Shown: piece after piece, positions 22,899-55,539 of the stretch
Layout: every line of letters starts with the position of its first letter
Position numbering within the stretch: position 1 is the stretch's first letter
IMG/VR virus record: IMGVR_UViG_3300027759_000003
Coordinates: 45,758-109,757 of that record
Length of the DNA: 64,000 nt
Strand: one strand, 5' to 3'
From: a virus
Program-made: the position numbers and the translations under genes
The notes under the pieces: model-generated
The model's input: only the letters and a program-made list of their open reading frames with translations
The model's database searches: none
Told to the model about the DNA's origin: nothing

Positions 22899-24883
22899 TG
22901 GCAATTAAAAGATTAGTTAATGACTCAAGTTTAGTAAATAGTTTTAGAGCCAGTAGAGGTCAATCTAGTGCAGCAATTCCTAATGCGCCTACTATTGGTA
23001 CAGCAACTGCTGTTACTGGTACTACAGCAACTGTTACTTATACCGCCGCAGTTTTAGGTGCTACAGCATCATCCTTTACAGCAACTTCTAATCCAGGATC
23101 ATTAACAGGTACTGGTTCTTCACCTATAACGGTTAGTGGTTTAGATGGTGAAACAAATTATACTTTTACAGTTTATGCAACTAATGCAAATGGTAACTCA
23201 ACGCAATCTGGTGCAAGTAATCAAATTACTACACCTGTTGCTACTTTATCTGTTGATTACTTAGTTGTCGCTGGCGGCGGCGGTGGTGGTGTTGGTGGCG
23301 GTGGCGCTGGTGGATATAGAACTTCTGTTGGCTCTGGTCAAGGTTCTCCTTTAACTATATCATTAAATGCTGATTACACTGTTATAGTAGGTGCTGGTGG
23401 CGCTACTTCAACATCAGGTATTAATTCAGTATTTTCTACAATTACATCTACTGGTGGTGGTAGAGGTGCAAGTGGAGTCTCTGTATTTGACGGTGGTTCA
23501 GGTGGTGGTGGTAGTAATGATGCTACTAATTATGGTTTAGGAAACACTCCAGCAACTTCACCTTCACAAGGTAATAATGGTGGCTCAAGATTTAATGGAC
23601 AAACTTCAGGCGGCGGCGGCGGTGCAGGTGCAGTAGGTGGTAATGCAAGCAATTCTACTACTGGTGGCCATGGTGGTGATGGTGCTGCTAACTCTATTAC
23701 TGGTTCTTCTGTAACTTATGCAGCAGGTGGTGGAGGTGGTGGTTGGGGTGGTGGTAGTTTTAACGTTTCTGGTGGTGGTAATGGTGGTAGTAGCGGTCTC
23801 GGCGGAAATGCTGAAAGAAACGGAGTCGTTGGGCAACCAGGAACAGTAAATACTGGTAGTGGCGGTGGCGGCGGATATTGGGTAAATGGTTTAGGTACAG
23901 GCGGCTCAGGAATTGTTGTAGCCCGATACTCAGGCACTGTACAAAAAGCAAGTGGTGGAGTGGTTACTACATCAGGTGGAAATACAATTCACACATTTAC
24001 CACATCTGGAAACTTTTTAACTTTATCATCTCCACTAGCAAAAGCAAGCGGTGGAGTTATATCTACTGATGGTACTTATTGGTATCACGCATTTTTATCT
24101 TCAGCAACATTTACTCCTACTCAATCATTAACTGCTGATGTATTAGTAGTTGCTGGTGGTGGCGGAGGAGGTACTTCTGATTCTGATACTGGCGGCTCTG
24201 GCGGTGGTGGTGCAGGTGCGCTTCGTTATTTTGCTTCACAATCATTAACCGCAACTGGATATTCTGTAACAGTTGGTGCTGGTGGTACTGCGGGTACAAC
24301 AAGTAATGTTGGTACTAATGGTATAAATTCACAGTTTGGTTCTTTATCTGCTTCATCAGGTGGCGGTTGCGGTGGTGGTGGTAATTCCCCTGGATATGGT
24401 GGAAGTAATGGTGGTTCAGGTGGTGGTGGTAAATCTAATACAGGTAATAATGGGGCTGGAACTGGAACTACAGGTGGCAATAATGGCGGTGGTGGCAATA
24501 ATGGCGGACAACGTGGTGGAGGTGGAGGTGGAGGAGCAGGTGCTGCTGGTACTGCTGGTGGATTTAGTGCGTCAGGTGCAGGTGGAATTGGGTTAAATAC
24601 ATATTCATCTTGGGCAAGTGCAACTGGAACTGGAGTAAGTGGTTATTATGCAGGCGGAGGCGGTGGCGGAGAAGGTGGTGCATCAGGTAATGGCGCTGGA
24701 CTTGGTGGAACGGGTGGAGGAGGTCGAGGCAATTCACATACTTCTGGAATTGCTGGTGCAGCGGGAACTGCAAATACTGGCGGCGGTGGAGGTGGCGGCG
24801 GAGGCAGTGCAAGCGTTGGTGGTTTATACCCAACAGGAAATGCTGGCGGTAGCGGTATAGTAATTATAAGATATGCAGTCTAA
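22898..24883 (+). CDS. FN3 plus double polyglycine fibre/adhesin protein 2
   Basis: 661 residues from ATG 22898 (TAATGG overlap). Begins MAIKRLVNDSSLVNSFRAS, then one FN3 domain (about 27-118), then two polyglycine modules (about 125-350 and 420-655). A linker with repeated KASGGV...TDGTYWYHAF strands separates them. The first module ends IVVARYSGT and the second IVIIRYAV. The double tip is shared only with the 25456 protein, so the two seem to descend from one duplicated gene. The FN3-coding DNA is nearly identical to that of 25456. Confidence 0.75.
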   Translation: MAIKRLVNDSSLVNSFRASRGQSSAAIPNAPTIGTATAVTGTTATVTYTAAVLGATASSFTATSNPGSLTGTGSSPITVSGLDGETNYTFTVYATNANGNSTQSGASNQITTPVATLSVDYLVVAGGGGGGVGGGGAGGYRTSVGSGQGSPLTISLNADYTVIVGAGGATSTSGINSVFSTITSTGGGRGASGVSVFDGGSGGGGSNDATNYGLGNTPATSPSQGNNGGSRFNGQTSGGGGGAGAVGGNASNSTTGGHGGDGAANSITGSSVTYAAGGGGGGWGGGSFNVSGGGNGGSSGLGGNAERNGVVGQPGTVNTGSGGGGGYWVNGLGTGGSGIVVARYSGTVQKASGGVVTTSGGNTIHTFTTSGNFLTLSSPLAKASGGVISTDGTYWYHAFLSSATFTPTQSLTADVLVVAGGGGGGTSDSDTGGSGGGGAGALRYFASQSLTATGYSVTVGAGGTAGTTSNVGTNGINSQFGSLSASSGGGCGGGGNSPGYGGSNGGSGGGGKSNTGNNGAGTGTTGGNNGGGGNNGGQRGGGGGGGAGAAGTAGGFSASGAGGIGLNTYSSWASATGTGVSGYYAGGGGGGEGGASGNGAGLGGTGGGGRGNSHTSGIAGAAGTANTGGGGGGGGGSASVGGLYPTGNAGGSGIVIIRYAV

Positions 24884-24895
24884 CAAAGGAGAAAT

Positions 24896-25096
24896 ATGAA
24901 AAAAGATAACGCAACTAAAATAAAAGAAACAAAGACAACACAATGTTTTAGTTATGAAATAACAATGTTAGTACACGTTATTTCTGATACCGAAACAAAC
25001 GCTAAAGCACAATTAGACGAAAAAGGCGGTATTGTTACAAAACGTAATGTACAATTAGTTAATAAATCAACTCTCTACGGAGAAGAAACGGAATAA
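24896..25096 (+). CDS. Small fibre-associated protein, paralogue of 29553 gene
   Basis: 66 residues. RBS AAAGGAG. SYEITMLVHVISDTETNAKAQLDEKGGIVTKRNVQLVNKS is a compact beta-alpha-beta unit. It matches the 53-residue leftward gene at 29553-29714 (TYKVEMIIHLLSDSEPKAA). Function unknown. Confidence 0.65.
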   Translation: MKKDNATKIKETKTTQCFSYEITMLVHVISDTETNAKAQLDEKGGIVTKRNVQLVNKSTLYGEETE

Positions 25097-25098
25097 TC

Positions 25099-25440
25099 AT
25101 GGGTCACTATGCAAAAATAGAAGACGGAATTGTTACACAGGTAATCGTTGCCGATGGACCAGACTGGTGTGAAAAAAACTTAGGTGGTGAATGGGTTCAA
25201 ACCTCATACAACACACACGGTGGAGTTCATTCAGGCGGTAAATTTGCTATCCACAAAAATTATGCAGGTATTGGATACACATTTGACGGTATTGGCTTTG
25301 CCGCACCTCAACCTTATCCATCTTGGACAAAAAATTTAAACACATACTTGTGGGAAGCACCAACCCCAATGCCAGTTGATGACAAAATCTATCGTTGGGA
25401 TGAAGACACAACCTCTTGGGTTGAAGTAACACAAGAATAA
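25099..25440 (+). CDS. Virion-associated conserved protein (YAGIGYTYD family)
   Basis: 113 residues. NYAGIGYTFDGIGFAAPQPYPSW...LWEAPTPMP...IYRWDEDTTSWVEV. The same family is encoded at 55590-55940, also right after or before FN3-polyglycine genes. I recognise this family from cyanophage fibre regions. A chaperone or structural part of the fibre tip is likely, by position. Confidence 0.7.
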   Translation: MGHYAKIEDGIVTQVIVADGPDWCEKNLGGEWVQTSYNTHGGVHSGGKFAIHKNYAGIGYTFDGIGFAAPQPYPSWTKNLNTYLWEAPTPMPVDDKIYRWDEDTTSWVEVTQE

Positions 25441-25455
25441 AAAAAAGGTATCTAA

Positions 25456-27417
25456 ATGGCAGCCAAAAGAGTAGTTACCAGTAGTAGTATAGCCAACAGT
25501 TTTAAGATGAGTGTTGGACAATCTTCTGCTGCCATTCCAAATTCCCCGACAATCGGCACTGCTACTGCTGTAACAGGAACTACTGCTACTGTTGCTTATA
25601 CTGCTGCCGTATTAGGGGCTACAGCATCATCCTTTACTGCTACATCTAATCCAGGATCACTTACTGGTACTGGTTCTTCACCTATAACGGTTAGTGGTTT
25701 GACTGGTGAAACAAATTATACTTTTACAGTTTATGCAACTAATGCAAATGGTAACTCAGCGCAATCTGGTGCAAGTAATCAAATTACTACTCCTACTGCA
25801 AACTTAATTATTGATGCTCTTGTTATTGCTGGCGGTGGTGGAGGTGGAAGTTATGGAACTAGTGGTGGCGGCGGCGCAGGCGGATTATTATATTTTAGTT
25901 CACAAACTCTATCTCCTGCATCTTATGTAATAACTGTTGGAGCAGGAGGTGCAGCAGCCACTAATGGATATGATTCACAATTTGGTGCGTTAACTTCGGC
26001 TATAGGTGGTGGAACAACTGGAACTAATGGTGGTTCTGGTGGTGGTGCTGGTGACACTGGTAACGCTGGCTCTGGTGTAGTTGGACAAGGAAACAACGGA
26101 GGATCTAGGGGTGGAAGCATTGGTTTAGGAGGAGGAGGTGGTGCAGGAGGTGCTGGCGGAAATGGTTCAGGTAATGGTGGTGTAGGTGGTGCTGGTGTAA
26201 ACACATATTCATCTTGGGCATCTGCAACTTCTACAGGTGTATCTGGATATTACGCTGGCGGCGGCGGTGGCGCTGGCCATTATAGTCAACAGGTTGGAGG
26301 TGCAGGTGGTTCAGGTGGAGGTGGAAATGGTGGTTCTGCTGACACAGTTGCTGCTACTTCTGGAGTTGCAAATACAGGTTCAGGTGGTGGTGGTGGTGCA
26401 TTTGCTGGTTATAGTCCTAGTCCACTTGGTGGTTCAGGTGGTTCAGGAATTGTTATAGTTCGTTATCAATCTGGTACACAAAAAGCATTAGGTGGAACAA
26501 TTACAACATCTGGAGGATATTATTATCATACATTTACTGCATCAGGTATTTTTCAAACAGAGTATTCAGTAGCAAAAGCAACTGGCGGATCAATAAATAC
26601 TGATGGTACTTATTGGTATCACACATTTACTGGTTCAGGTACATTTACTCCTACTCAATCATTAACTGCTGATTATTTGGTAGTAGCAGGCGGCGGCGGT
26701 GGAGGAAACATGGGCGGTGGCGGCGGAGCAGGTGGACTTCGTTCTACTGTTACTGCAACAGGCGGTGGCGGTTCATTAGAATCATCAGTATCTTTAATTA
26801 ACAATACAGCATACGCAATTTCTATTGGTGCAGGAGGAACTAGTTCAGTTCAACATAATATTTCTGGCGGTCAAGGTGTAAATTCATCAATTATTGGTGG
26901 AGCAATCTCTATTACATCTACAGGTGGCGGTGGTGGAGCAAGTTATGCTTCAAGCCCAAGTAGTGGTGGTTCAGGTGGCGGCGGCCAGCGTTCTAATGGT
27001 GCAGGAGCATCTGGAACACAATATCAGGGTTATGCAGGTGGTTCAGGTGGTGGATATAGCGGTGGTGATGATAGTCTTTCATCTGGCGGTGGCGGAGGCG
27101 GAGCAGGTACTATTGGTGGTTCATATAATTCTGGAATTACTAAAGCAGGTAATGGTGGTAACGGTGTTCAAATTACTGCATTATCAACACCAACTGGAAC
27201 TGGTAAAGACAGTGGCTATTACGCAGGTGGTGGTGGAGGTGGTGGATATAACTCAACCGCTGGGTCTGCAGGTCTTGGTGGAGTAGCAGGTGTAACTGGT
27301 GGCAATAATGGTATATCTGGAACTCCAAATACTGGTAGTGGCGGTGGAGGTGGCGGTACTGGAAGAAATGGCGGACCAGGCGGTAGCGGTATAGTAATAA
27401 TTAGGTATGCAGTCTAA
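25456..27417 (+). CDS. FN3 plus double polyglycine fibre/adhesin protein 3
   Basis: 653 residues. Same plan as the 22898 protein: N-terminal segment with SAAIPNSPTIG, FN3 (about 26-117), polyglycine module 1 (about 122-335, ends IVIVRYQSGT), YYYHTF...TDGTYWYHTF linker, polyglycine module 2 (about 405-650, ends IVIIRYAV). The FN3 half is almost identical in DNA to 22898, while the Gly-rich loops differ strongly. That pattern is expected when tips diversify under receptor selection. Confidence 0.75.
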   Translation: MAAKRVVTSSSIANSFKMSVGQSSAAIPNSPTIGTATAVTGTTATVAYTAAVLGATASSFTATSNPGSLTGTGSSPITVSGLTGETNYTFTVYATNANGNSAQSGASNQITTPTANLIIDALVIAGGGGGGSYGTSGGGGAGGLLYFSSQTLSPASYVITVGAGGAAATNGYDSQFGALTSAIGGGTTGTNGGSGGGAGDTGNAGSGVVGQGNNGGSRGGSIGLGGGGGAGGAGGNGSGNGGVGGAGVNTYSSWASATSTGVSGYYAGGGGGAGHYSQQVGGAGGSGGGGNGGSADTVAATSGVANTGSGGGGGAFAGYSPSPLGGSGGSGIVIVRYQSGTQKALGGTITTSGGYYYHTFTASGIFQTEYSVAKATGGSINTDGTYWYHTFTGSGTFTPTQSLTADYLVVAGGGGGGNMGGGGGAGGLRSTVTATGGGGSLESSVSLINNTAYAISIGAGGTSSVQHNISGGQGVNSSIIGGAISITSTGGGGGASYASSPSSGGSGGGGQRSNGAGASGTQYQGYAGGSGGGYSGGDDSLSSGGGGGGAGTIGGSYNSGITKAGNGGNGVQITALSTPTGTGKDSGYYAGGGGGGGYNSTAGSAGLGGVAGVTGGNNGISGTPNTGSGGGGGGTGRNGGPGGSGIVIIRYAV

Positions 27418-27476
27418 TAAATAATAAAATAATGATACAATGTTTTTATAACTTTGATTTTTTTGAAGGGATTTAA

Positions 27477-29003
27477 ATGGCAGTCAACAACCTAAATAAG
27501 GTAAAAATTCCAGGTACTGGAACTACTGCTGCCCGTCCATCTAATCCTGCTGTAGGAGATACTTTTTATAACGGTACCCTCGGAAGATTAGAAATTTATA
27601 CATCACAAGGATGGATGGCTTTAAATGCCCCAGCAGCAACCCCTACAGGTGTAACAGCAACAGACGCAGGTTCTGGCAGGGCATACAATAATGGCTCTGC
27701 ATCAATAGCATTTACTCCAGCAACAGCAGGTGGTCTACCAACATCATATGTAGTTACATCATCTCCTGGCTCCTATACTGCGACGGGATCAGTAAGTCCA
27801 ATCATAGTATCAGGTCAACAATCTTCAACTCAATATACATATACAGTAGTAGCAAGCAATGACTTTGGAACAGCAACATCTTCTGCATCTAGTGCAGTTA
27901 CTGCAACTACCGTGCCACAGGCTCCTACAATTGGTGCTGTAACTGGTGGAAATGCTTTAGCAACAGTTGCCTATACAGCAGGTGCAACTGGTGGTTTATC
28001 TAATACTTATACTGCTACATCATCTCCAGGTGGACTTACTGGTACTGGTTCAAGTCCTATTACAGTTTCAGGATTAACTAATGGAACTTCATATACATTT
28101 ACAGTAACAGCAACAAATGCTAACGGAACATCAGCAGCAAGTGCTGCAAGTAGTTCAGTAACTCCTGTTGCAGAAATTTTAGTTGATTACCTTGTACTTG
28201 CAGGAGGCGGTGGCGGAGGCGGAGGCGGTGGTGGTGCAGGTGGATTGCGTTCTACTGTAACTGCAAGTGGTCGTGGTACCGCACCCGAATCCAATTTAAC
28301 TTTATTACCTTCAACTAATTATGCGGTTACAGTTGGTGCTGGCGGTGCTGGTGTTCTGGGTTACGAAGGAACTGGTGCTGGTGGTGGCATCGGAGCAAAC
28401 TCTGTATTTAGCACTATAACTTCTCTTGGTGGAGGCGGTGGCGGAAGCAACGCTAATTTTGGTACTAACGGTGGTTGTGGTGGTGGAGCGTGTTATTCAT
28501 CAGGTCAGTCAGGTCCAGGAGCAGGAACTGCTGGTCAAGGATTTGATGGTGGTCAAGATACAGTTGATATTGCCCCATATCCTGGTGCTGGTGGTGGAGG
28601 AACTGGTCAAGCAGGACAAGTGCCCCTTACTGCATCTGTCCCTGGTCCTGGAGGTAATGGTACGGCTGTATCAATTACTGGTACATCAGTTACGTATGGC
28701 GGCGGAGGCGGAGGTGGAATATATCCTTACTCTTCTACTGGTGCTCCTGGTGGTACTGGCGGAGGCGGAAGTTCAAGTGGTGGAGTAGGTGGCGACGGTA
28801 CTGTCAATCTTGGTGGTGGCGGTGGTGGAAATTCAAGAACTCAAACAGGTGGCAATGGCGGAGCAGGTGTAGTTATTCTTAGATACCCAGACACTTTTAC
28901 AATTTCAATTGGAGCAGGTTTAACAGGAACTACAAGTTCACCAAGTGGCGGATACAAAAGAACAACATTAACTGCAGGTACTGGAAATGTGAGTTGGGCA
29001 TAA
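27477..29003 (+). CDS. Tail-fibre protein with two FN3 domains and polyglycine tip
   Basis: 508 residues. A different N-terminus carries RPSNPAVGDTFYNGTLGRLEIYTSQGWMALN, a virion-attachment motif seen in other phage fibres. Two FN3 domains follow (about 55-145 and 147-235), then one polyglycine module (about 240-470), and the tail TISIGAGLTGT...GTGNVSWA. It is the longest arm of the set and may be the base fibre. A TGATACAAT -10 lies about 50 nt upstream. Confidence 0.75.
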   Translation: MAVNNLNKVKIPGTGTTAARPSNPAVGDTFYNGTLGRLEIYTSQGWMALNAPAATPTGVTATDAGSGRAYNNGSASIAFTPATAGGLPTSYVVTSSPGSYTATGSVSPIIVSGQQSSTQYTYTVVASNDFGTATSSASSAVTATTVPQAPTIGAVTGGNALATVAYTAGATGGLSNTYTATSSPGGLTGTGSSPITVSGLTNGTSYTFTVTATNANGTSAASAASSSVTPVAEILVDYLVLAGGGGGGGGGGGAGGLRSTVTASGRGTAPESNLTLLPSTNYAVTVGAGGAGVLGYEGTGAGGGIGANSVFSTITSLGGGGGGSNANFGTNGGCGGGACYSSGQSGPGAGTAGQGFDGGQDTVDIAPYPGAGGGGTGQAGQVPLTASVPGPGGNGTAVSITGTSVTYGGGGGGGIYPYSSTGAPGGTGGGGSSSGGVGGDGTVNLGGGGGGNSRTQTGGNGGAGVVILRYPDTFTISIGAGLTGTTSSPSGGYKRTTLTAGTGNVSWA

Positions 29004-45596: not shown

Positions 45597-46328
45597 ATGG
45601 CTAAAAGCATGGACTTCCCAGACGTTTCAAAAAAGAAAAAATACTCCGAAGCAGTACAAGGCACCCAAGAATTAAATACACAGTATATTGCTGTTCCTGG
45701 AATCCAAGGTGAAAAAGGTGAAACTGGACCAAAGGGTGAAAAAGGTGATCAAGGTATACAAGGTTTAAAAGGAGAAAAAGGGGATAGAGGTCCCGAAGGT
45801 CCACAAGGACAGCGAGGAGAGCCAGGTAAGGGTGCAGAAGGCTATGACAGCGTATCTGGTCAATATCCAGGATGGGCATATTATAGGAATAAAAATTTAA
45901 GTGAAGTTAGGCTTGGTCCAGAAAGAGGGGATGACGGATGGGTATCTATAAATTTTATGAAAGACGAAGAAACATCTAATGAGATCTATATGCCAATCGG
46001 TGCAAATACTTTATGGAATAATGAATCAAAAAATTTTAACTTTAAAGCCTTAAAAATTGGAGCAAAGGTAGATGTAAGATATGACTTTACTATAACTACT
46101 TATATGAATAATACAGAGGTTTGGGCTAGGTTATTTGTTCCAGATTATAGCAACTCTCCAATAGGATATGTTTCAACTCTAAAATATCAATACTCATACG
46201 ATATGTCATATAACCAAACCATATATCTAGATGCTCAAAGAATTAGAACACTAGGTGGAGCAATTCAATTCAGGGCAGATAATGAAAGTAATATAGTTCT
46301 AAATGGTATCTATATTGCTGTTTGTTAA
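45597..46328 (+). CDS. Collagen-like tail-fibre protein
   Basis: 243 residues. A short head (1-34), then 15 unbroken Gly-X-Y triplets (35-79; GEKGETGPKGEKGDQ type) that should form a triple-helical stalk. A link with GWAYYRNKNLSEVRLGPERGDDGW follows, then a beta-rich C-terminal domain (about 125-243) that probably trimerises and may bind receptor. Pro occurs in X and Y positions, so Y-position Pro could be a prolyl-hydroxylase substrate. The hydroxylase gene lies about 4 kb downstream. Confidence 0.82.
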   Translation: MAKSMDFPDVSKKKKYSEAVQGTQELNTQYIAVPGIQGEKGETGPKGEKGDQGIQGLKGEKGDRGPEGPQGQRGEPGKGAEGYDSVSGQYPGWAYYRNKNLSEVRLGPERGDDGWVSINFMKDEETSNEIYMPIGANTLWNNESKNFNFKALKIGAKVDVRYDFTITTYMNNTEVWARLFVPDYSNSPIGYVSTLKYQYSYDMSYNQTIYLDAQRIRTLGGAIQFRADNESNIVLNGIYIAVC

Positions 46329-46331
46329 TGG

Positions 46332-46350
46332 TATAATGGATCAGGAGGAC
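46332..46350 (+). promoter_or_regulatory. Promoter and RBS of BppU-like gene 2
   Basis: TGGTATAAT (TATAAT about 46332-46337) and AGGAGG before ATG 46353. Confidence 0.65.
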
Positions 46351-46352
46351 TA

Positions 46353-46694
46353 ATGGCATTTCCAGGCAGTTATAGTTTTAGTTATTACCGTGGCGACACA
46401 TCTCAATTTGTGGTTCGACCTAAAACAACGGATGGTTCAGCCTTTGATTTAACAGGTTATACTGCCGCTTTTACAATTGCAAATCAATCAGGACCAAGCG
46501 GTACTCAAACTGCTGCTGTTACAGTTGTTAATACAACAACAGACATTGTAACATGCACAATTACTCCAGCAATTGGAAGAACACTTTCAGCAGGAACTTA
46601 TGTCTATGACGTTCAAATTACAAACGGAACACAAATTTATACACTACTTGCTGGATCAATTACAGTAACCAATGATATTACTGGTGCAGTATAA
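46353..46694 (+). CDS. BppU-like small beta protein 2
   Basis: 113 residues: YYRGDTSQFVVRPKTTDGSAFDLTGYTAAFTI...YVYDVQITNGTQIYTLLAGSITVTNDITGAV. It is a clear relative of 45102 and 59442 and resembles the N-terminal domain of BppU-type fibres. Overlaps the next gene by 1 nt. Confidence 0.72.
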   Translation: MAFPGSYSFSYYRGDTSQFVVRPKTTDGSAFDLTGYTAAFTIANQSGPSGTQTAAVTVVNTTTDIVTCTITPAIGRTLSAGTYVYDVQITNGTQIYTLLAGSITVTNDITGAV

Positions 46695-47281
46695 TGCCTG
46701 ATGTTTTATTAAACAATGACGACATTACAGTTCTTGGTCCCCCAGAAGTTGTAGAACTTCTTGTAGATATTGGACCAACAGGAACTCGTGGAAGTCAAAC
46801 ATTTGTTGGAATAGGAGATCCCAACACTATTGAAATTGGACAAACCCCACTACTAAATGATTTATACATTAATACCTCTCCAGGTGCAGATTATGGATAT
46901 TTATATCAATACGTATCTCAACCTGGAGGAAATACCTGGATTGAAGTTTTAGAATTAAATCCAACAATCTATTCAGTTAATCACACAACAACTTATGTCA
47001 ATGGAGTTGCACAGATTGTGATTCCTATTTCAAATATTACCTCTGAAACATCACTAACTGCTAGTAACTTCAGTGTTCAATTTAGTATTGTTAATGATAA
47101 TCCAGTTGCAGCCTCTATGAGCATACCCGCACTTGCTGGAAACAATCAAAATTTAGTTATAAACTTTAAAGCAGTTGAGCATAGAACAGATGTAGATTCT
47201 GGCCCATATGGAGATTGGGCGGTTTTAGAGGGAGAAGTAACAACACATTTATTTATAACAATTTTAGATGAGGAGTCTTAG
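46694..47281 (+). CDS. Fibre component
   Basis: 195 residues. GPTGTRGSQTFVG is a collagen remnant; PNTIEIGQTPLLNDLYINTSPGADYGYLYQYV is a fibre-surface strand motif; the C-terminal half is a beta-sandwich (FSVQFSIVNDNPVAASMSIPAL). No enzyme motif. Part of the 46.3-48.6 kb operon. Confidence 0.68.
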   Translation: MPDVLLNNDDITVLGPPEVVELLVDIGPTGTRGSQTFVGIGDPNTIEIGQTPLLNDLYINTSPGADYGYLYQYVSQPGGNTWIEVLELNPTIYSVNHTTTYVNGVAQIVIPISNITSETSLTASNFSVQFSIVNDNPVAASMSIPALAGNNQNLVINFKAVEHRTDVDSGPYGDWAVLEGEVTTHLFITILDEES

Positions 47282-47318
47282 TCTATATCTTTATGATATA
47301 ATTCTAATGAGGTGATAT

Positions 47319-48047
47319 ATGGCAGCAGAATCAATAGGTACGTTAGTACCAACTAAAATTCCAGGATTATCAGATCCTGCCGACATACAAGCAGCACTGC
47401 GTTTATATCACTATGGAGATTATACATATACTACATCAAACTCTAATACAGCAAACCTTGTAAATCCATCTATTGCTTATACAATTAATAGTTTACAAAG
47501 TCAGATAACTGCAATTGATCTTTCAACTGCACTACTAAAAACAGACTTTGCTGCTAAAGGTGATCTACTTTCTGCTTCAGCAAATGACACATTATCTATT
47601 TTATCTGTTGGAAGTAATGGAACAGTTTTAACAGCCAACTCAGCAACAGCATCAGGTTTAGCCTGGACAACACCAGATGTTACACTTACTAATAGTGCAA
47701 CACTAACTAATAAAACTTTAACTGCTCCAGTTATAAATCTTTCAATTAATCCACAAACAGTTGCCTATGAACTTGTTCTTGCCGATAATGGAAAAATGGT
47801 TGAGGTGTCAAGTGCTTCTGCAGTTACCTTGTCAATTCCAACAAACGCCAACCAAGCATTTGCAACAGGTGCACAAATTACAATTTTACAAACAAGCACG
47901 GGACAGGTAACTATTGCAGCAACTACTCCAGGAACTACAACTGTAAACGGAACTCCAGGATTAAAATTAAGAGCACAATGGTCATCTGCCGTATGTATTA
48001 AACGTGCTACTGACTCTTGGGTTGTTCTTGGAGACTTAGTTGCATAA
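47319..48047 (+). CDS. Fibre protein sharing repeat modules with 60553
   Basis: 242 residues. A helical N-terminus, then AAKGDLLSASANDTLSILSVGSNGTVLTANSATASGLAW and TLTNKTLTAPVI. The same two modules occur in the 60553 and 63252 proteins. The C-terminal beta part has VTLSIPTNANQAFATGAQITILQ. Promoter TGATATAAT at about 47292; RBS GAGGTGA. Confidence 0.72.
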   Translation: MAAESIGTLVPTKIPGLSDPADIQAALRLYHYGDYTYTTSNSNTANLVNPSIAYTINSLQSQITAIDLSTALLKTDFAAKGDLLSASANDTLSILSVGSNGTVLTANSATASGLAWTTPDVTLTNSATLTNKTLTAPVINLSINPQTVAYELVLADNGKMVEVSSASAVTLSIPTNANQAFATGAQITILQTSTGQVTIAATTPGTTTVNGTPGLKLRAQWSSAVCIKRATDSWVVLGDLVA

Positions 48048-48622
48048 TGTCAAGACTAGGACCCGTATCATCTTCTGCTGGTCGTAAACCAGGAACACCA
48101 ACAATTGGGTCTGCAACTGCTGGCGATGGTCAAGCAAGTGTAACATTTACAGCACCAACATATTTAGGTAAACCAAATTCTTCTTTAACTTATACAGTAG
48201 TTTCATCTCCTAGTTCAATTTCTAATACTGGATCTGGATCACCAATTACAGTTACTGGATTATCAAATGGAACATCTTATAGTTTTACAGTAAAGTTAAG
48301 TAATACTGTTTTAGATTCTGAGTTTTCATCAGCAAGCAATAACGTTTCTCCAGCAGGAGCAGCACCACCACCCCCACCTCCTCCTCCCCCACCACCCGTA
48401 ACGCCACCACCTGTAACGCCGCCACCTGCGACGCCACCACCTGCGACGCCACCACCTGCGACGCCACCACCTGCGACGCCACCACCTGCGACGCCACCAC
48501 CTGTTCAAAACAAATCTTGTACTACACAAGATGTTATTAATGGTCTATGCTATCCAAGCGGATGTTGTGGTGGTGTTCGTGGAGGACAGTGTGGATATAC
48601 AACAACTTGTAATTATGGATAA
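48047..48622 (+). CDS. FN3 plus polyproline (ATPPP)n protein
   Basis: 191 residues from ATG 48047 (TAATG overlap). One FN3 domain (about 12-98), a run of 11 Pro, then VTPPP/ATPPP repeated about seven times. The C-terminal domain is Cys-rich (SCTTQDVINGLCYPSGCCGG), probably disulfide-linked. A rigid Pro stalk of this kind is the ideal substrate of prolyl hydroxylase and hydroxyproline-linked glycosylation, whose candidate enzymes follow within about 1.5 kb. Confidence 0.78.
   Translation: MSRLGPVSSSAGRKPGTPTIGSATAGDGQASVTFTAPTYLGKPNSSLTYTVVSSPSSISNTGSGSPITVTGLSNGTSYSFTVKLSNTVLDSEFSSASNNVSPAGAAPPPPPPPPPPPVTPPPVTPPPATPPPATPPPATPPPATPPPATPPPVQNKSCTTQDVINGLCYPSGCCGGVRGGQCGYTTTCNYG
48403..48505 (+). 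repeat. 15-bp tandem repeats coding ATPPP/VTPPP
   Basis: GCCACCACCTGCGAC-type units, nearly identical for five copies. Copy number could vary by slippage in frame. Confidence 0.9.
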
Positions 48623-48655
48623 GATAAGATATACTTTTAATAAGGAGAAAAATAT

Positions 48656-49021
48656 ATGGTAACAGATGCTTCAATTGATTATATTTATAGCCCAGAAATT
48701 CCAGGCATAGGGGTTGCCTTTGTTATTGATAGAGAGGTTTTGTATACTGCTCCAGTCTGGGCTACATTTGGACAAAAATTATTAGACGCTACAGAATTTA
48801 GAGATGTCTCATCTGAATATATAGAACATAATGGTATGACAATAGAAATATTAATAGATGATCAAGTAGTAGAAACATGGCAAACCACAGAGTATGTAGG
48901 TTCAATTTTACTTTCAAATCCATTAATATTAGATTTATCAAAATATGAAAATGGCGGATATGTAGAAGATTTAAAGGCTAGTTTTGACGGTGTAAAATTT
49001 ATTATTAAAACAGGGGAATAA
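48656..49021 (+). CDS. Hypothetical protein
   Basis: 121 residues, beta-rich: SIDYIYSPEIPGIGVAFVIDREVLYTAPVWATFGQKLLDA. RBS AAGGAG, with TATACT about 30 nt upstream. Position suggests a fibre-related role. Confidence 0.62.
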   Translation: MVTDASIDYIYSPEIPGIGVAFVIDREVLYTAPVWATFGQKLLDATEFRDVSSEYIEHNGMTIEILIDDQVVETWQTTEYVGSILLSNPLILDLSKYENGGYVEDLKASFDGVKFIIKTGE

Positions 49022-49022
49022 T

Positions 49023-49247
49023 ATGAGTAAGTGGTCAGAGTATAAAGAAAAAAATGGATCAACTCCACTGGATTTTTTAAATCCAAGAACTAACCGTGTT
49101 AGTGATGAAGTTGCAAAATCAAGACTTGATATATGCATATCTTGCCCAGAATTAATACAAATTACAAAACAATGTAAAAAATGTAGATGTTTTATGACAG
49201 CAAAAACAAAAATTGAAGCATCCAGATGCCCAATAGGAAAATGGTAA
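49023..49247 (+). CDS. Zinc-binding conserved phage protein
   Basis: 74 residues: RLDICISCPELIQITKQCKKCRCFMTAKTKIEASRCPIGKW gives CxxC, CxxCxC and a final Cys. It resembles a small Cys-rich family common in cyanophages. A TAATG junction couples it to the GT60-like gene. Confidence 0.72.
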   Translation: MSKWSEYKEKNGSTPLDFLNPRTNRVSDEVAKSRLDICISCPELIQITKQCKKCRCFMTAKTKIEASRCPIGKW

Positions 49248-50203
49248 TGAATAAGATTTATGTTTCAATAGCATCTTATCGAGATCCATATTTACAAAGT
49301 ACAATAGATTCACTTTTTCTTGAAGCAGATAATCCAGAAAATATAACAGTTGGATGTTTTATACATGCTTTAAAAAATGAAATTAAAGATTTAAGCCTAA
49401 AAAAAACATATAACAATAAAGTTAAATATGAAATTGAGCAGGCTGGTACAGTTTTTAGCGTTACCGCTTGTAGAAATCGTTGTTTAAAATGGCTTGACAG
49501 TACTTATAAATACACCTTACAAGTAGACTCTCATTCAAGATTTGATAAAGGATGGGATACAAAATTAATTAATATTATAGAGTCTACAGGTGATAATAAA
49601 GCAATACTTAGCGGTGCGTTACCAGTTTTTGATATTTTAGAAGATGGCACAGAAGAAAAAAAACAACAAGATTATCCAGTTTCATTTACTGTGCATACTG
49701 ACACAACCAAAGAGAATATTTTGCATTCCTACGACCTATCTCCAAGGGGAATAGTTTTACAAACACTTGAAAACAAGGAATACGCTATTGATTGGTATTT
49801 AACTGGACATTTTATTTTTTCTTTAAGTGATTATTTTAAAAAAATTCCACAACCAGACTGGGTTTTATTTTGGGGAGAAGAAGTTTTAAACGGTGTTAGA
49901 GCCTTTACTGCTGGATATAACGTTTATATTCCAAAAAATGTACCAATTTATCATTTGTATTCTGATAGAATAAAAAGACCAAGATTAGTTCAAGATTTTC
50001 CAGAAAAATATTTTTTATTAAGAGACTATACAACAGACAGAATTATTGATATACTAATAGGTAAAGATATTAAAGAAAATGATATTTTTTATGAAAGAAG
50101 TATAGAAAGTTTTTATAACTACGTTGGTTATAATTTAGGAGAATTATTTGATTCTTGGAGAAATTGGAGAAAAGAGTTAATTGATAAGGGGAGAAATGAA
50201 TAA
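49247..50203 (+). CDS. GT60-like (GlcNAc/hydroxyproline) glycosyltransferase
   Basis: 318 residues from ATG 49247; a start 21 nt earlier lies in the previous gene. IYVSIASYRDPYLQSTIDSLFLEADNPENITVGCFIH opens as in PF11397, the Skp1-type hydroxyproline GlcNAc-transferase family (GT60). It continues with VTACRNRCLKWL and the metal motif LQVDSHSRF (DxH in place of DxD), then WGEEVLNGVRAFTAGYNVYIP near the donor site. In Dictyostelium, GT60 adds GlcNAc to hydroxyproline. Here the next gene is a prolyl hydroxylase, overlapping by 8 nt. Confidence 0.8.
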   Translation: MNKIYVSIASYRDPYLQSTIDSLFLEADNPENITVGCFIHALKNEIKDLSLKKTYNNKVKYEIEQAGTVFSVTACRNRCLKWLDSTYKYTLQVDSHSRFDKGWDTKLINIIESTGDNKAILSGALPVFDILEDGTEEKKQQDYPVSFTVHTDTTKENILHSYDLSPRGIVLQTLENKEYAIDWYLTGHFIFSLSDYFKKIPQPDWVLFWGEEVLNGVRAFTAGYNVYIPKNVPIYHLYSDRIKRPRLVQDFPEKYFLLRDYTTDRIIDILIGKDIKENDIFYERSIESFYNYVGYNLGELFDSWRNWRKELIDKGRNE

Positions 50204-50750
50204 AGCAAAAACGTTTAAAAATTTTATTTTAAAAAAAGATTGTGAATATTTAATAAATAAAATTAAAGATTCGTCTTTATGGGAAAGTGGAGGTTCTGGA
50301 TTTTGGGACAACCGTGTAATTAATTATAGTAAGTTATTAACTTATGATAAAGTTGCAGCAGAAATTATGAAAGATGCAAATTTAAGGTGTGCTGCAAAAA
50401 TTAAAGAAGAATATAATATAGATAAACCAGTGTACTCTGATACCTTGCAGGCAATTCGTTGGTTTCCAGAAATGGAACAAACTCCACATGCAGACGATAT
50501 GACAAATACAGACATAAAGGGTTTTGAGCATAGGGTTTTTGGATCTATTATATATCTTAATGATGACTATGAGGGCGGACATACTTATTATCCAAACTAT
50601 AATTTTGAAATAACTCCAGAGGCTGGTAAATTAGCAATACATCCAGGAGATCCAGAGCATTTGCATGGAGTTACTAAAATTAAAAATAACATTAGATATA
50701 CTATTGCCTCATTTTGGACATTTGAAAAAAATCTAAGTTATGTCTGGTAA
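50196..50750 (+). CDS. Prolyl 4-hydroxylase-like 2OG-Fe(II) dioxygenase
   Basis: 184 residues from ATG 50196 with GGGGAG just before it. The iron ligands His98-x-Asp100 (TPHADD) and His157 (LHGV), the 2-oxoglutarate Arg/Lys region (Arg167, NNIRYTIASFW) and YEGGHTYYP match P4H-type double-stranded beta-helix enzymes. It would hydroxylate prolyl (or similar) residues with O2 and 2OG. Coupled upstream to the GT60-like gene and overlapping the DUF6065-like gene by 11 nt. Confidence 0.88.
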   Translation: MNKAKTFKNFILKKDCEYLINKIKDSSLWESGGSGFWDNRVINYSKLLTYDKVAAEIMKDANLRCAAKIKEEYNIDKPVYSDTLQAIRWFPEMEQTPHADDMTNTDIKGFEHRVFGSIIYLNDDYEGGHTYYPNYNFEITPEAGKLAIHPGDPEHLHGVTKIKNNIRYTIASFWTFEKNLSYVW

Positions 50751-51492
50751 TTATTTAAATAATTCTGGATTTGAAATTCCAGAAAATAAAATTGCTATAG
50801 TTCCACATTCACTAGATAATGATGGTTGGTATAAAGAAGTTATCAAACCATTAAAGGGTGAAACCAAAAGAGATTGGTTTAATTCTCATTTTTATTATTG
50901 TTTACCACTTACTATTGGAAATCAATACGGATTTGTAATTAATTCACTTAGAGACTTTGAGGTGTCTTGGGACGGTACAGATTCAGACGCTATGATTAAT
51001 TTTTTAAATAATGATAATCAAGAAAAACAAATAATTAAAAATGGTTTTGGCAAAGGCATTGTAACAATACAAAATCTATTTGCATTAAAGACTCCAATTG
51101 GTATTAATATAATGACTATACAACCACCAAACCTTTTTATACCTGGATGTTCTGCCATGACTGGGGTAATAGAAACAGACCAAATAAGAAGAGACTTTAC
51201 GTTTAACTTTAAAATCACAATTCCAAACCAAAAAATAACAATAAAAAAGGGTGATGCAATAGGAGCATTTATTCCTATTCCAAGATACTTTGTAGATAAC
51301 TTTGAAGTAGAACTGGTTAGTAATTTATTTGATAAACAATTACATATTAATGAAATTGAAGAAATGAATAATCTTTCAAAAGAAAGAGGTGGGGTAGACA
51401 GGCTTAAACCACACCAGTCTGGAAGAAGGTATTTTAATGGTATTCATACCGATAGTAACAAATATCCAGACCACCAAAAGCGGGTACATTAA
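50740..51492 (+). CDS. DUF6065-like protein
   Basis: 250 residues. The GFGKGIVTIQNLFALKTPIGINIMTIQPPNLFIPGCSAMTGVIETD and FTFNFKITIP...KKGDAIGAFIPIPRYF pattern matches what I recall of DUF6065, a family without proven function. It is found together with 2OG dioxygenases in some genomes. It may be a partner in the proposed proline modification. Confidence 0.65.
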   Translation: MSGNYLNNSGFEIPENKIAIVPHSLDNDGWYKEVIKPLKGETKRDWFNSHFYYCLPLTIGNQYGFVINSLRDFEVSWDGTDSDAMINFLNNDNQEKQIIKNGFGKGIVTIQNLFALKTPIGINIMTIQPPNLFIPGCSAMTGVIETDQIRRDFTFNFKITIPNQKITIKKGDAIGAFIPIPRYFVDNFEVELVSNLFDKQLHINEIEEMNNLSKERGGVDRLKPHQSGRRYFNGIHTDSNKYPDHQKRVH

Positions 51493-51890: not shown

Positions 51891-53105
51891 GTGTCAACCA
51901 AAAGACTATCGGATAAAACTAGTCTAGTTAATAGTTTTAGAATGGGTATGGGGGCGTCTAGTGCTGCCATACCTGATACCCCGACAATTGGCACCGCTAC
52001 AAAAACTGGTGGAACAGGCGCTACTGTTACTTATACCGCTGCAACTTTAGGAGCAAATGCTTCTTCCTTTACAGCAACTTCAAATCCAGGATCTTTAACA
52101 GGAACTGGATCTTCACCAATTACTATTAATGGATTAACTCCAGCAACAAATTATACTTTTACCGTTACTGCTACAAATTCAAATGGAACATCTGCAGCAA
52201 GTTCTGCAAGTAATGAAATTACTACAGATGCACTAGTATCAGTTTCTTACTTAGTTCTTGCTGGTGGTGGCGGCGGTGGACAAGGTGGCGGCGCTGGCGG
52301 CGGAGGTGGAGGAGCAGGTGGATATCGTACAAATTTTGAAGGAACATCTTTATCATTACTTTTATCAACTAACTATTCTGTAACTATTGGCGGAGGTGGT
52401 GTTGGAACTGCATATCCAAATCCTCAAAATTCTGGAACTAATTCTTCATTTTCTACTATTTCTGCAACGGGTGGCGGAGGAGGCGGAGGAGAAAGTTTAT
52501 CTGGTAATGGTGGAGGTGCTGCATTTAGAATTGGATCAACTGGTGGCTCTGGAGGTGGATCTAAGGGAGAGCAAGGAGTTGCAGATGGTGGTATTGCTAG
52601 TCGTGTAGGTGGAACTGGTAATGCTGGTGGATACTCTCCAGTAGAAGGTTATAATGGTGGTGTAATGATTGGAACTCCCCAGCCCAATGGTTCAGGTGGT
52701 GGAGGTGCTGGAGGGACAGGCGGTTCAAATAATAACTCAATTGGTGGCGCAGGCGGAGGCGGGGCTTCTAATTCAATTACTGGTTCGTCAGTAACCTATG
52801 GCGGAGGCGGAGGTGGTGCTGGATACTTTACTACAGGAGGTGCTGGAGGTAGTGGAGGTGGAGGTAGAGGTCAACAAAGAGATGGTCTTGCTGGAACTGC
52901 TGGTGAATCAAATAAAGGTGCTGGCGGTGGAGGTGCTACCAATATTACATCTTATAATGGTGGATCAGGAGTTGTAATTCTTAGATATCCAAATACATAT
53001 ACAATTTCAAATCCTGGTGGAGGATTATCAATGTCAACAAACACAGTTTCTACAGACAAAGTAACCACAATTACTGCGGGTACTGGAAACGTAAGTTTTG
53101 CATAA
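51891..53105 (+). CDS. FN3 plus polyglycine fibre/adhesin protein 5
   Basis: 404 residues from GTG 51891 behind AGGAGGG. STKRLSDKTSLVNSFRMG then SAAIPDTPTIG, one FN3 (about 26-115), one polyglycine module (about 120-370), then YTISNPGGGLSM...GTGNVSFA. Overlaps the next gene by 1 nt, the first of three in tandem. Confidence 0.75.
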   Translation: MSTKRLSDKTSLVNSFRMGMGASSAAIPDTPTIGTATKTGGTGATVTYTAATLGANASSFTATSNPGSLTGTGSSPITINGLTPATNYTFTVTATNSNGTSAASSASNEITTDALVSVSYLVLAGGGGGGQGGGAGGGGGGAGGYRTNFEGTSLSLLLSTNYSVTIGGGGVGTAYPNPQNSGTNSSFSTISATGGGGGGGESLSGNGGGAAFRIGSTGGSGGGSKGEQGVADGGIASRVGGTGNAGGYSPVEGYNGGVMIGTPQPNGSGGGGAGGTGGSNNNSIGGAGGGGASNSITGSSVTYGGGGGGAGYFTTGGAGGSGGGGRGQQRDGLAGTAGESNKGAGGGGATNITSYNGGSGVVILRYPNTYTISNPGGGLSMSTNTVSTDKVTTITAGTGNVSFA

Positions 53106-54343
53106 TGGCAAATAAAAGTATAAAAACAGGATCATCAATAATTGTTAGTAAATCTATTGCAGTAGGTAATACATCTGCCGCTATTCCAAATGCTCCAACT
53201 ATTGGCACTGCTACTAAGACAGGAATAACAACTGCAACTGTTACTTATACCGCTGCAGTTTTAGGTGCAACTGGCACAACTTTTACTGCTACATCAAATC
53301 CAAGTTCTATTACAGGAACTGGCTCTTCACCAATTACTATTAATGGATTAACTCCAGCAACAAATTATACTTTTACCGTTACTGCCACAAACTCTAATGG
53401 AACATCAACAGCCTCTGCTGCAAGTAATTCAATTACTACTGATGCTCAACCAATACTTTCAAGTGTTGATTATCTTGTTGTTGCAGGTGGCGGTGGCGGT
53501 GGTGGAGTAGGACAAACCGCAGGTGGAGGCGGAGGCGGAGGTGGAGGATTTAAAACTTCTACTAATTTTTCCATTAGTGGCTCTTTCACAGTAACAGTTG
53601 GTGCTGGCGGTGCAGGTGGTGCCGCAGGTAATAGTCATCCAGGTTCAAATGGTGGTAATAGTGTTTTCTCTACCATTACATCAACTGGTGGTGGTGGTGG
53701 TGGTTCGTATTCTAGTCAAAGTGCTGGTTTATCTGGTGGTTCAGGTGGTGGAGGAACTATTGGCGAAAGTGGTGGTGCTGCTTCTCCTGCTGGTCAAGGT
53801 AATGCTGGTGGAAACGCAAATGCAGGTAATGAAGGACAATTTCAACAAGGTGCTGGCGGCGGCGGTGCTGGTAGCGCAGGTGAAAATGTTGGAACAAATG
53901 GCGATACAACTGCTGGTGGAACAGGCGGATCTGGCTTAAGTAATTCATACTCAGGAAGTGCTGTTACCTATGCTGGCGGCGGCGGCGGCGGTGGTGGATA
54001 CTATAACGTATTTACTGCAGGACTTGGACAAGATGGTGGCGCTAATGGAACTGCTGGTTCAAGTTCAGGCTCAACAGATACCCCAACCAATGCGGTAGTA
54101 AATCGAGGCGGCGGAGGTGGTGGTGCTGGTGGTGATACTAATGGTGGTGGTGGTTACCCAAATACACCAGGAGGCAATGGCGGCTCAGGTGTTGTTATAT
54201 TGCGTTATGCAGATAATTATGCTGATTTAACTTCTATTAGTGGAAGTTTAGTTAAAACAGGTGGTGGAACAACGCCAACAACAACAACAGGTGGTTACAA
54301 AATTTATGTATTTACAGCAGGAACAGGAACGGTGACTATCTAA
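53105..54343 (+). CDS. FN3 plus polyglycine fibre/adhesin protein 6
   Basis: 412 residues. SAAIPNAPTIG, one FN3 (about 29-118; TINGLTPATNYTFTVTATNSNGTS shared with 51891), a polyglycine module (about 122-370) ending VVILRYADNY, then a short cap. The FN3 DNA is nearly identical to 51891, while the Gly-rich part differs. Confidence 0.75.
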   Translation: MANKSIKTGSSIIVSKSIAVGNTSAAIPNAPTIGTATKTGITTATVTYTAAVLGATGTTFTATSNPSSITGTGSSPITINGLTPATNYTFTVTATNSNGTSTASAASNSITTDAQPILSSVDYLVVAGGGGGGGVGQTAGGGGGGGGGFKTSTNFSISGSFTVTVGAGGAGGAAGNSHPGSNGGNSVFSTITSTGGGGGGSYSSQSAGLSGGSGGGGTIGESGGAASPAGQGNAGGNANAGNEGQFQQGAGGGGAGSAGENVGTNGDTTAGGTGGSGLSNSYSGSAVTYAGGGGGGGGYYNVFTAGLGQDGGANGTAGSSSGSTDTPTNAVVNRGGGGGGAGGDTNGGGGYPNTPGGNGGSGVVILRYADNYADLTSISGSLVKTGGGTTPTTTTGGYKIYVFTAGTGTVTI

Positions 54344-55539
54344 TGTCAGTTAAAAGATTCTCAGACGACTCAAGTATAAAGAATACTTATAAATTAGGTA
54401 GAGGTGCAACTAGTGCCGCTATTCCAAATACCCCGACTATTGGTGCTGCTACTGCAGTTAACGATGTTTCTGCTACCGTTGCCTATACCGCTGCAGTCTT
54501 AGGTGCTAATGGTGTTACCTTTACAGCAACATCTACTCCTGGTTCTATTACTGGTTCTAGTTCTACTTCACCAATTACAGTGTCAGGATTAACAGCATCA
54601 ACAAATTATACATTTACAGTAAAGGCAAATAATGCTAATGGTAATTCTCCTAACTCAGAAGCAAGTAATCAAATTACTACTGCGCCACCAATAGTTTATT
54701 TTGATGTTGATTATTTAGTTATTGCAGGCGGCGGTGGCGGCGGATTTAATGCAGGAGGTGGTGGTGGTGCAGGTGGATTTAGAACAAGCGCTGGAACGCA
54801 AGGTGGTGGAGGCGGTGGTGCTTCAGCATTAAATCTTGATACAGCAACAAATTACACAGTTACTGTTGGTGGTGGTGGTGCTGGTGCAACCAGCAATGCG
54901 TTAGGTAGTAGTGGTGTTAATTCTGTATTCTCAACTATTACATCAACAGGTGGCGGAGGCGGTGGTAGTCGCAGTTCTAATAAAACTGGTGGTACTGGTG
55001 GTTCTGGTGGTGGTGGTGCAAATGATTTAGGTAGTGGTGGTTCTAGAACTAGTAGCCCAGTACAAGGAAACAATGGTGGTGCTAATGTTGGCGATTCAAC
55101 TGGCGCAGGCGGAGGCGGCGCTGGTGGCGCTGGAGGTACTGGCGGTGCTGGTAACCCAGGAACAGGCGGCGCAGGTCTTGCTTCAAGCATTACTGGCAGT
55201 TCTGTTACTCGTGCTGGCGGCGGCGGCGGTGGTTATAGAGTTGGCGCTGCAAATGGTGGTACTGGCGGTGGTGGTGCAGGTTCACTTGGTGGCAGTAATA
55301 CCCAACCAGCGGTTGCGGGTAATGCAAACACAGGCTCTGGCGGCGGTGGTGGTAACAATGCTACAGATAATGCTGCTGGAAATGGTGCTAGCGGTGGGTC
55401 AGGTGTCGTAATTTTAAGATACCCAGATTCACGCACAATTACATTTGGCGCAGGAGTTACAGGAACTGAAAGTGGAGCAAGCGGTGGATACAAAAGAGCC
55501 ACAATAACAGAGGGTACTGGAAACGTAAGTTGGACATAA
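54343..55539 (+). CDS. FN3 plus polyglycine fibre/adhesin protein 7
   Basis: 398 residues. SVKRFSDDSSIKNTYKLG, SAAIPNTPTIG, FN3 (about 27-118), polyglycine module (about 123-360), cap TITFGAGVTGT...GTGNVSWT. Overlaps 53105 by 1 nt. Related in its cap to the 21738 and 27477 proteins. Confidence 0.75.
   Translation: MSVKRFSDDSSIKNTYKLGRGATSAAIPNTPTIGAATAVNDVSATVAYTAAVLGANGVTFTATSTPGSITGSSSTSPITVSGLTASTNYTFTVKANNANGNSPNSEASNQITTAPPIVYFDVDYLVIAGGGGGGFNAGGGGGAGGFRTSAGTQGGGGGGASALNLDTATNYTVTVGGGGAGATSNALGSSGVNSVFSTITSTGGGGGGSRSSNKTGGTGGSGGGGANDLGSGGSRTSSPVQGNNGGANVGDSTGAGGGGAGGAGGTGGAGNPGTGGAGLASSITGSSVTRAGGGGGGYRVGAANGGTGGGGAGSLGGSNTQPAVAGNANTGSGGGGGNNATDNAAGNGASGGSGVVILRYPDSRTITFGAGVTGTESGASGGYKRATITEGTGNVSWT

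Follow-up and report, generated by a model that had tools for sequence, protein, structure and literature searches.

A window of 64,000 nucleotides, which is part of a 109,757-bp IMG/VR virus record (IMGVR_UViG_3300027759_000003), carries a prolyl hydroxylase-type gene, a glycosyltransferase gene of family GT60 and a DUF6065 gene downstream of a collagen-like fiber gene and of a fiber gene with a long proline array. The locus raises the question which protein, if any, a phage would modify with such enzymes. A first-pass annotation, made from the letters of the window, had proposed that the phage hydroxylates and glycosylates its own fiber stalks, with both upstream proteins as candidates. The part of this proposal that ties the enzyme set to the polyproline fiber stood in a survey of related loci, whereas the part that included the collagen-like fiber did not. 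We favor, with a probability of roughly 0.6, the reading that positions 48047-51492 form an exchangeable fiber cassette, the enzymes of which hydroxylate and often glycosylate the cassette's own proline stalk. This reading starts from gene identities, conserved catalytic residues, predicted folds and the co-exchange of the enzyme set with the proline-repeat unit, all of which are observed.

The five genes named in the first-pass annotation are all present where it had placed them, on the + strand. The proposed substrate (48047-48622, + strand) runs from an FN3 base through a polyproline stalk to a Cys-rich tip, as judged from its translation, the array, a weak fn3 match and tip swaps in relatives; the fn3 match is sub-threshold (Pfam, E 7.5e-4, 20.1 bits versus a cut-off of 25). 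The proposed modification site within it is a 46-residue proline array, P11(VTPPP)2(ATPPP)5 (48365-48502, + strand), encoded by a 15-bp tandem repeat of 7.7 copies with a 95% match. The prolyl-hydroxylase-type gene (50196-50750, + strand) encodes a 2-oxoglutarate (2OG)- and Fe(II)-dependent oxygenase (PF13640, 2OG-FeII_Oxy_3, E 2.8e-7). Its ligand set is complete, as had been supposed: H98, D100, H157 and the 2OG-binding R167 are invariant in 40 homologs. When its profile was compared with the PDB, prolyl 3-hydroxylase 1 ranked at the top (1.2e-15), followed by the prolyl 4-hydroxylases (P4Hs) of Bacillus (3.8e-12) and PBCV-1 (3e-7), with lysyl hydroxylases weaker. Because these matches are prolyl and lysyl hydroxylases, the product is predicted to be a peptidyl-hydroxylase-type enzyme, of either 3- or 4-hydroxylation, which is one argument for the proline stalk as its substrate. 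The oxygenase family is named 'DNA endonuclease (V)' in PHROG 2297/274 and in some cyanophage records (NC_027130 gp021/gp025, locus L006), apparently a propagated misannotation.

The glycosyltransferase (49247-50203, with 49226 as alternative start, + strand), which had been noted as resembling PF11397, belongs to this GlcNAc/GT60 family (E 9.9e-38, 131 bits versus a cut-off of 21). Its DxH motif reads D101-S-H103 when numbered from 49226, with H103 invariant and D101 conserved in at least 90% of 21 sequences. The fold model (predicted local distance difference test, pLDDT, 89) has GT-A polypeptide N-acetylgalactosamine (GalNAc)-transferases as its nearest folds (E 3e-10, template modeling (TM) score by query 0.5-0.6). 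This likeness, together with the finding that the window's GT60 subfamily was found only behind (A/V/T)TPPP arrays, again argues for the proline stalk.

Related loci (L numbers) were retrieved using the hydroxylase, DUF6065 and GT60 as queries. The recurring gene order is proline-array fiber, zinc-ribbon, variable enzymes, hydroxylase and DUF6065, and the co-occurrence of GT60, hydroxylase and DUF6065 in relatives, on which the first-pass proposal hinged, was recovered; hydroxylase and GT60 are encoded together also in L011, L012, L055, L073 and L145/L345. GT60 can be replaced by GT61 (L008, L016) or, in L010, by an O-FucT-like protein whose gene lies next to one for a UDP-sugar dehydrogenase; L016 has a GT4-type gene downstream of DUF6065. 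Other island genes encode JmjC/cupin proteins, radical SAM-SPASM proteins, a carbamoyltransferase and extra 2OG oxygenases. The hydroxylase-seeded loci were picked without regard to proline. Among them, a proline array was found upstream of the hydroxylase in 17/17 loci with at least 4.5 kb of upstream sequence and downstream in 0/20, as compared to 7/78 control tiles from GT60-only viral loci, which points to the stalk as substrate. Conversely, searching viral contigs for (xTPPP)3-coding DNA yielded 116 new loci, most of them without any 2OG gene; the proline array alone was therefore ruled out as a predictor of an island. A link of GT60 in general to proline arrays was likewise rejected, as the distant GT60 loci have few (the same 7/78 tiles). 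Seemingly interrupted hydroxylase genes (770-bp matches; L009, L010, L013-L015, L036) turned out to reflect a paralog, an additional hydroxylase gene located immediately upstream.

To follow the cassette from a fixed point, the tail-fiber-like gene at 47319-48047 (+ strand; phrog_8780 minor tail protein, 4e-14; alignment A5; anchor scan) was used as anchor, a choice independent of both proline and oxygenases. Behind the same anchor, tip and enzymes switch jointly: oxygenases are present at 24 of the 37 loci with proline tips and at none of the 10 with Gly-rich or other tips (Fisher p = 2e-4, duplicates removed). The ratio of loci with to loci without oxygenase is 13:1 for non-Phe proline arrays and 11:12 for Phe-rich PPFF arrays. 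Since oxygenases accompany proline tips and never Gly-rich or other tips, the exchange behind the anchor also argues for the stalk as substrate.

The islands with proline arrays were then compared at one record per locus (66), after the enzymes had been grouped into clusters at 45% identity and each array had been assigned a unit type. The unit types are dissimilar, namely (A/V/T)TPPP, IIAVTPP, VTPP, VAPPP, PPFF and polyP. Enzyme sets have a mean Jaccard overlap of 0.42 within units versus 0.11 between units, a difference reached in 0/2000 label permutations. Arrays of the same unit on unrelated N-terminal domains share more enzymes (0.28, 95 pairs) than arrays of different units on homologous N-terminal domains (0.085, 399 pairs). 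The sharpest cases are pairs with differing units on nearly the same base: the FN3 parts of L033/L353 are 100% identical at an enzyme overlap of 0.12, and those that are 97-100% identical in L032/L348 and L322/L327 come with overlaps of 0.17 and 0, respectively. The hydroxylase cluster of the window type occurs with TPP-type, polyP and a few other arrays, and other clusters occur with PPFF. These comparisons argue strongly, if not finally, that the enzyme set would track the repeat unit and not the flanking domains, and this coupling is a further reason to regard the stalk as the substrate.

Several points weigh against this reading. The loci are related by descent but were permuted as if independent; moreover, the unit classes were set after the arrays had been inspected. 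Enzymes of this kind are missing from many phages with TPPP or PPFF arrays (at the anchor, from 12/23 loci with PPFF tips), so modification is not a requirement of the arrays. In bacterial chromosomes (L247, L251, L253), the hydroxylase-DUF6065 pair occurs with no proline-array protein nearby, and cyanophage relatives near tail genes (L006) have no proline array; the enzyme family can therefore have other substrates. The close relatives L003 and L004 retain (TTPPP)n and GT60 with no adjacent hydroxylase. Finally, the cassette model does not account for DUF6065.

Catalytic activity, substrate, site, sugar and any benefit are what we infer for the cassette, as follows. The fiber gene would supply the FN3 base, the polyproline stalk and the Cys-rich tip, with the stalk-modifying enzymes encoded downstream. 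The 2OG oxygenase would most likely hydroxylate prolines of the P11(VTPPP)2(ATPPP)5 stalk, after which GT60 would add a sugar, N-acetylglucosamine (GlcNAc) if family precedent holds, to the hydroxyproline (Hyp) so formed or, alternatively, to an adjacent Thr. DUF6065 would be a partner of the oxygenase that is not itself a glycosyltransferase and could act, for example, in substrate presentation. As a conjecture, the phage might gain a stiffer polyproline-II rod, protease resistance, and altered adsorption or masking. As a tentative generalization, each proline-repeat unit may come with its own hydroxylases, JmjC/cupin oxygenases and glycosyltransferases of several families, and hydroxyproline-glycosylated stalks may be swapped between tailed phages like serotypes, as counterparts of plant extensins.

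The choice between Hyp and Thr as acceptor separates this reading from its closest alternative, in which the fiber is modified but GT60 glycosylates Thr of VTPPP/ATPPP in a mucin-type reaction, independent of a hydroxylase that only hydroxylates Pro. Members of GT60 include the Skp1 Hyp enzyme as well as the mucin-type UDP-GlcNAc:polypeptide alpha-GlcNAc-transferase of T. cruzi (PMC6939170), and the latter speaks for Thr, as do the mucin-type GalNAc-transferases nearest to the fold model and the combination of GT60 and (TTPPP)n in L003/L004, where an adjacent hydroxylase is absent. Thr also makes up at least 8% of the array in 10/12 GT60 islands (p = 0.01, antisense proline arrays in Gly-rich genes filtered out), an association that is post hoc, confounded by the shared cassette and not significant at a cut-off of at least 5% Thr (p = 0.058). 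Against Thr as general acceptor, arrays that are nearly free of Thr and Ser (VAPPP in L048, VVPP in L036/L013) nonetheless have glycosyltransferases, of other families, beside the hydroxylases. In such arrays, most of the hydroxyls on offer would be those of Hyp, which favors Hyp as acceptor at least in the L048, L036 and L013 islands. We consider the Thr-directed scheme rather unlikely for the window.

A collagen substrate, hydroxylated and glycosylated as in animals or giant viruses, is suggested by the collagen-like fiber gene 3 kb upstream (45597-46328, + strand; PF01391, E 1.1e-8), by the precedents of Mimivirus and PBCV-1 (the latter also cited in PMC9301287) and by a Baltic Sea survey, in which the viral use of P4H 'remains cryptic' and collagen is pointed to (PMC9301287). 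However, its stretch of exactly 15 Gly-X-Y triplets (45699-45833) has a single Y-position Pro, and the collagen-like gene occurs upstream of the anchor in 11/13 oxygenase loci and in 19/20 others, with Y-position Pro per triplet at 0.107 and 0.109 in loci with and without oxygenases, respectively. Since the gene occurs irrespective of oxygenases, the collagen-like protein is unlikely to be a substrate of the island's enzymes, contrary to the first-pass proposal; we regard a collagen substrate as very improbable, and its failure to track the enzymes again favors the proline stalk. Instead, the enzymes could act on the host capsule, the O-antigen or a secondary metabolite, perhaps to counter superinfection, in which case they would simply be exchanged along with the receptor-binding tip. 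A jumbo-phage survey reads similar cyanophage clusters of 2OG oxygenase, cupin, carbamoyltransferase and glycosyltransferase genes as capsule decoration or secondary metabolism (PMC7824862), some islands have carbamoyltransferase, UDP-sugar dehydrogenase, radical SAM-SPASM and sulfotransferase-like genes, and the GT60 gene of Xanthomonas phage XacN1 adjoins a carbamoyltransferase. This explanation is nevertheless improbable, given that the enzyme set goes with the repeat unit and not with the N- or C-terminal domain, that oxygenases are absent from Gly-rich-tip loci and that the oxygenase and GT60 look like protein-modifying enzymes. The least probable explanation is DNA hypermodification by a hydroxylase, a glycosyltransferase and a nucleotide enzyme. 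The dUTPase-like fold of DUF6065 and a weak Tet_JBP match (E 0.06, below cut-off) would agree with it, but the oxygenase profile matches prolyl and lysyl hydroxylases in the PDB, not TET/JBP, and the genes lie in the fiber module and are exchanged along with the stalk.

The DUF6065 protein (50740-51492, + strand), called DUF6065-like at first pass, is a member of PF19541 (E 2.5e-35, 122.5 bits versus a cut-off of 26.6). Foldseek matches its model (pLDDT 93) to dUTPases (E 5e-6, TM score by target about 0.7), and its motif III reads GVIETDQIRRD versus GxIDxxYxG in dUTPases, so that GxI is kept and Asp and Tyr are lost. In a further bacterial locus (L268 1392-2987), one 531-aa open reading frame apparently combines DUF6065 and a 2OG oxygenase, as judged from its length and a profile match. 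Because the two are paired in L247, L251 and L253 and apparently fused in L268, DUF6065 is likely a general partner of 2OG oxygenases of this type. No publication on DUF6065 was found in the collection of papers searched. Cultured phages contain one distant GT60 (in XacN1) and, at about 30% identity, oxygenases only from cyanophages; a search of cultured phages with DUF6065 gave no match.

Two genes between the fiber and GT60 genes are additional to those first listed. The first (48656-49021, + strand) encodes a small protein of unknown function that has no Pfam or PHROG match; its homologs occupy the equivalent position in several islands. The second (49023-49247, + strand) encodes a DUF6171/phrog_13558 zinc-ribbon-like protein (Pfam, PHROG and locus comparison) that precedes most islands; a DUF6171 gene also stands divergently beside a distant GT60 in L083, L087, L088, L089 and L122, where no proline array is found. 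The zinc-ribbon and GT60 genes, the GT60 and hydroxylase genes, and the hydroxylase and DUF6065 genes overlap pairwise, an arrangement that would fit a single operon of these four genes. Elsewhere in the window, 21738-29003 and 51891-55539 hold tandem FN3/Gly-rich fiber paralogs, three of which in the former group match phrog_2295, of unknown function.

Some related islands have other contents. Those with PPFF/PPGFFS arrays in L331, L335, L336, L340, L346, L349, L120 and L127 contain runs of 2OG-oxygenase genes, at most about eight long, together with two DUF6065 genes and mostly no GT60. The family of alignment A6 (for example, L017 2759-3304; L327 9167-9721; L003 4040-4732, - strand) recurs in islands and has an invariant HxD...H and R; it gave no Pfam or PDB match and is possibly an undescribed 2OG oxygenase family. 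Behind non-proline or PPFF tips (L364-L369, L354, L358), the cassette slot is occupied by sulfotransferase-like genes; L354 additionally has an IMP-dehydrogenase-like gene there, and all were recognized by eye. Also by eye, a Hint/intein-like C-terminal domain was seen to replace the Cys-rich tip in L028, L058, L062, L069, L314, L320, L352, L354, L359 and L361; an example of such an end on proline-array fiber proteins is CIHENTLIKTPNGLIPAKLLEV..., and some terminate in HN.

The enzyme families and the type of chemistry are known, and the setting and organization are new. In Dictyostelium, a P4H hydroxylates a proline of Skp1 and a GT60 enzyme adds GlcNAc to it. This Skp1 system (PhyA and Gnt1/GT60, in Dictyostelium and Toxoplasma) shares the pairing of a prolyl hydroxylase with a GT60-family enzyme, but its target is one Pro in a soluble subunit of a ubiquitin ligase, with a role in oxygen sensing, whereas the predicted phage system has fiber repeat arrays, a neighboring DUF6065 gene and enzyme sets that can be exchanged. 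In the plant extensin or hydroxyproline-rich glycoprotein pathway, P4H and Hyp glycosyltransferases act on SPPPP-type repeats. Repetitive polyproline rods are thus hydroxylated and glycosylated, as proven there and proposed for the phage, although the plant pathway uses unrelated glycosyltransferase families and the eukaryotic secretory pathway. PBCV-1 P4H and Mimivirus collagen modification provide a virus-encoded hydroxylase of the same superfamily (for PBCV-1, the PDB match at 3e-7), but in eukaryotic giant viruses; here, tailed phages have proline arrays instead of collagen and an enzyme set tied to the repeat. Mycobacteriophage virion glycosylation resembles the predicted system in that a phage-encoded glycosyltransferase decorates a virion protein, and differs in its substrate proteins; to our knowledge it has no hydroxylase step. 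The cyanophage clusters share 2OG oxygenase, cupin/JmjC, carbamoyltransferase and glycosyltransferase genes, but have been read as capsule, secondary-metabolite or nitrogen-signaling functions, with no link to a proline-array fiber (PMC7824862, PMC3037559).

Among the auxiliary genes that abound in aquatic viruses are those for prolyl hydroxylases (PMC9301287). The association of the enzyme with polyproline stalks rather than with the collagen-like gene provides a specific substrate to test and suggests a possible answer to what viral prolyl hydroxylases do. In the portions of the literature on hydroxyproline, bacteriophages and tail fibers that were accessible to our search, no report of hydroxyproline in a tailed phage was found; if true, the modified stalk would, as far as that partial search extends, be the first case of hydroxyproline or a Hyp-linked sugar in a tailed phage. 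The cassette would also place DUF6065 and some members of GT60 in a context, and would offer small soluble enzymes for making hydroxylated, glycosylated proline rods. It would further mean that phages exchange the chemistry of the fiber together with the fiber itself.

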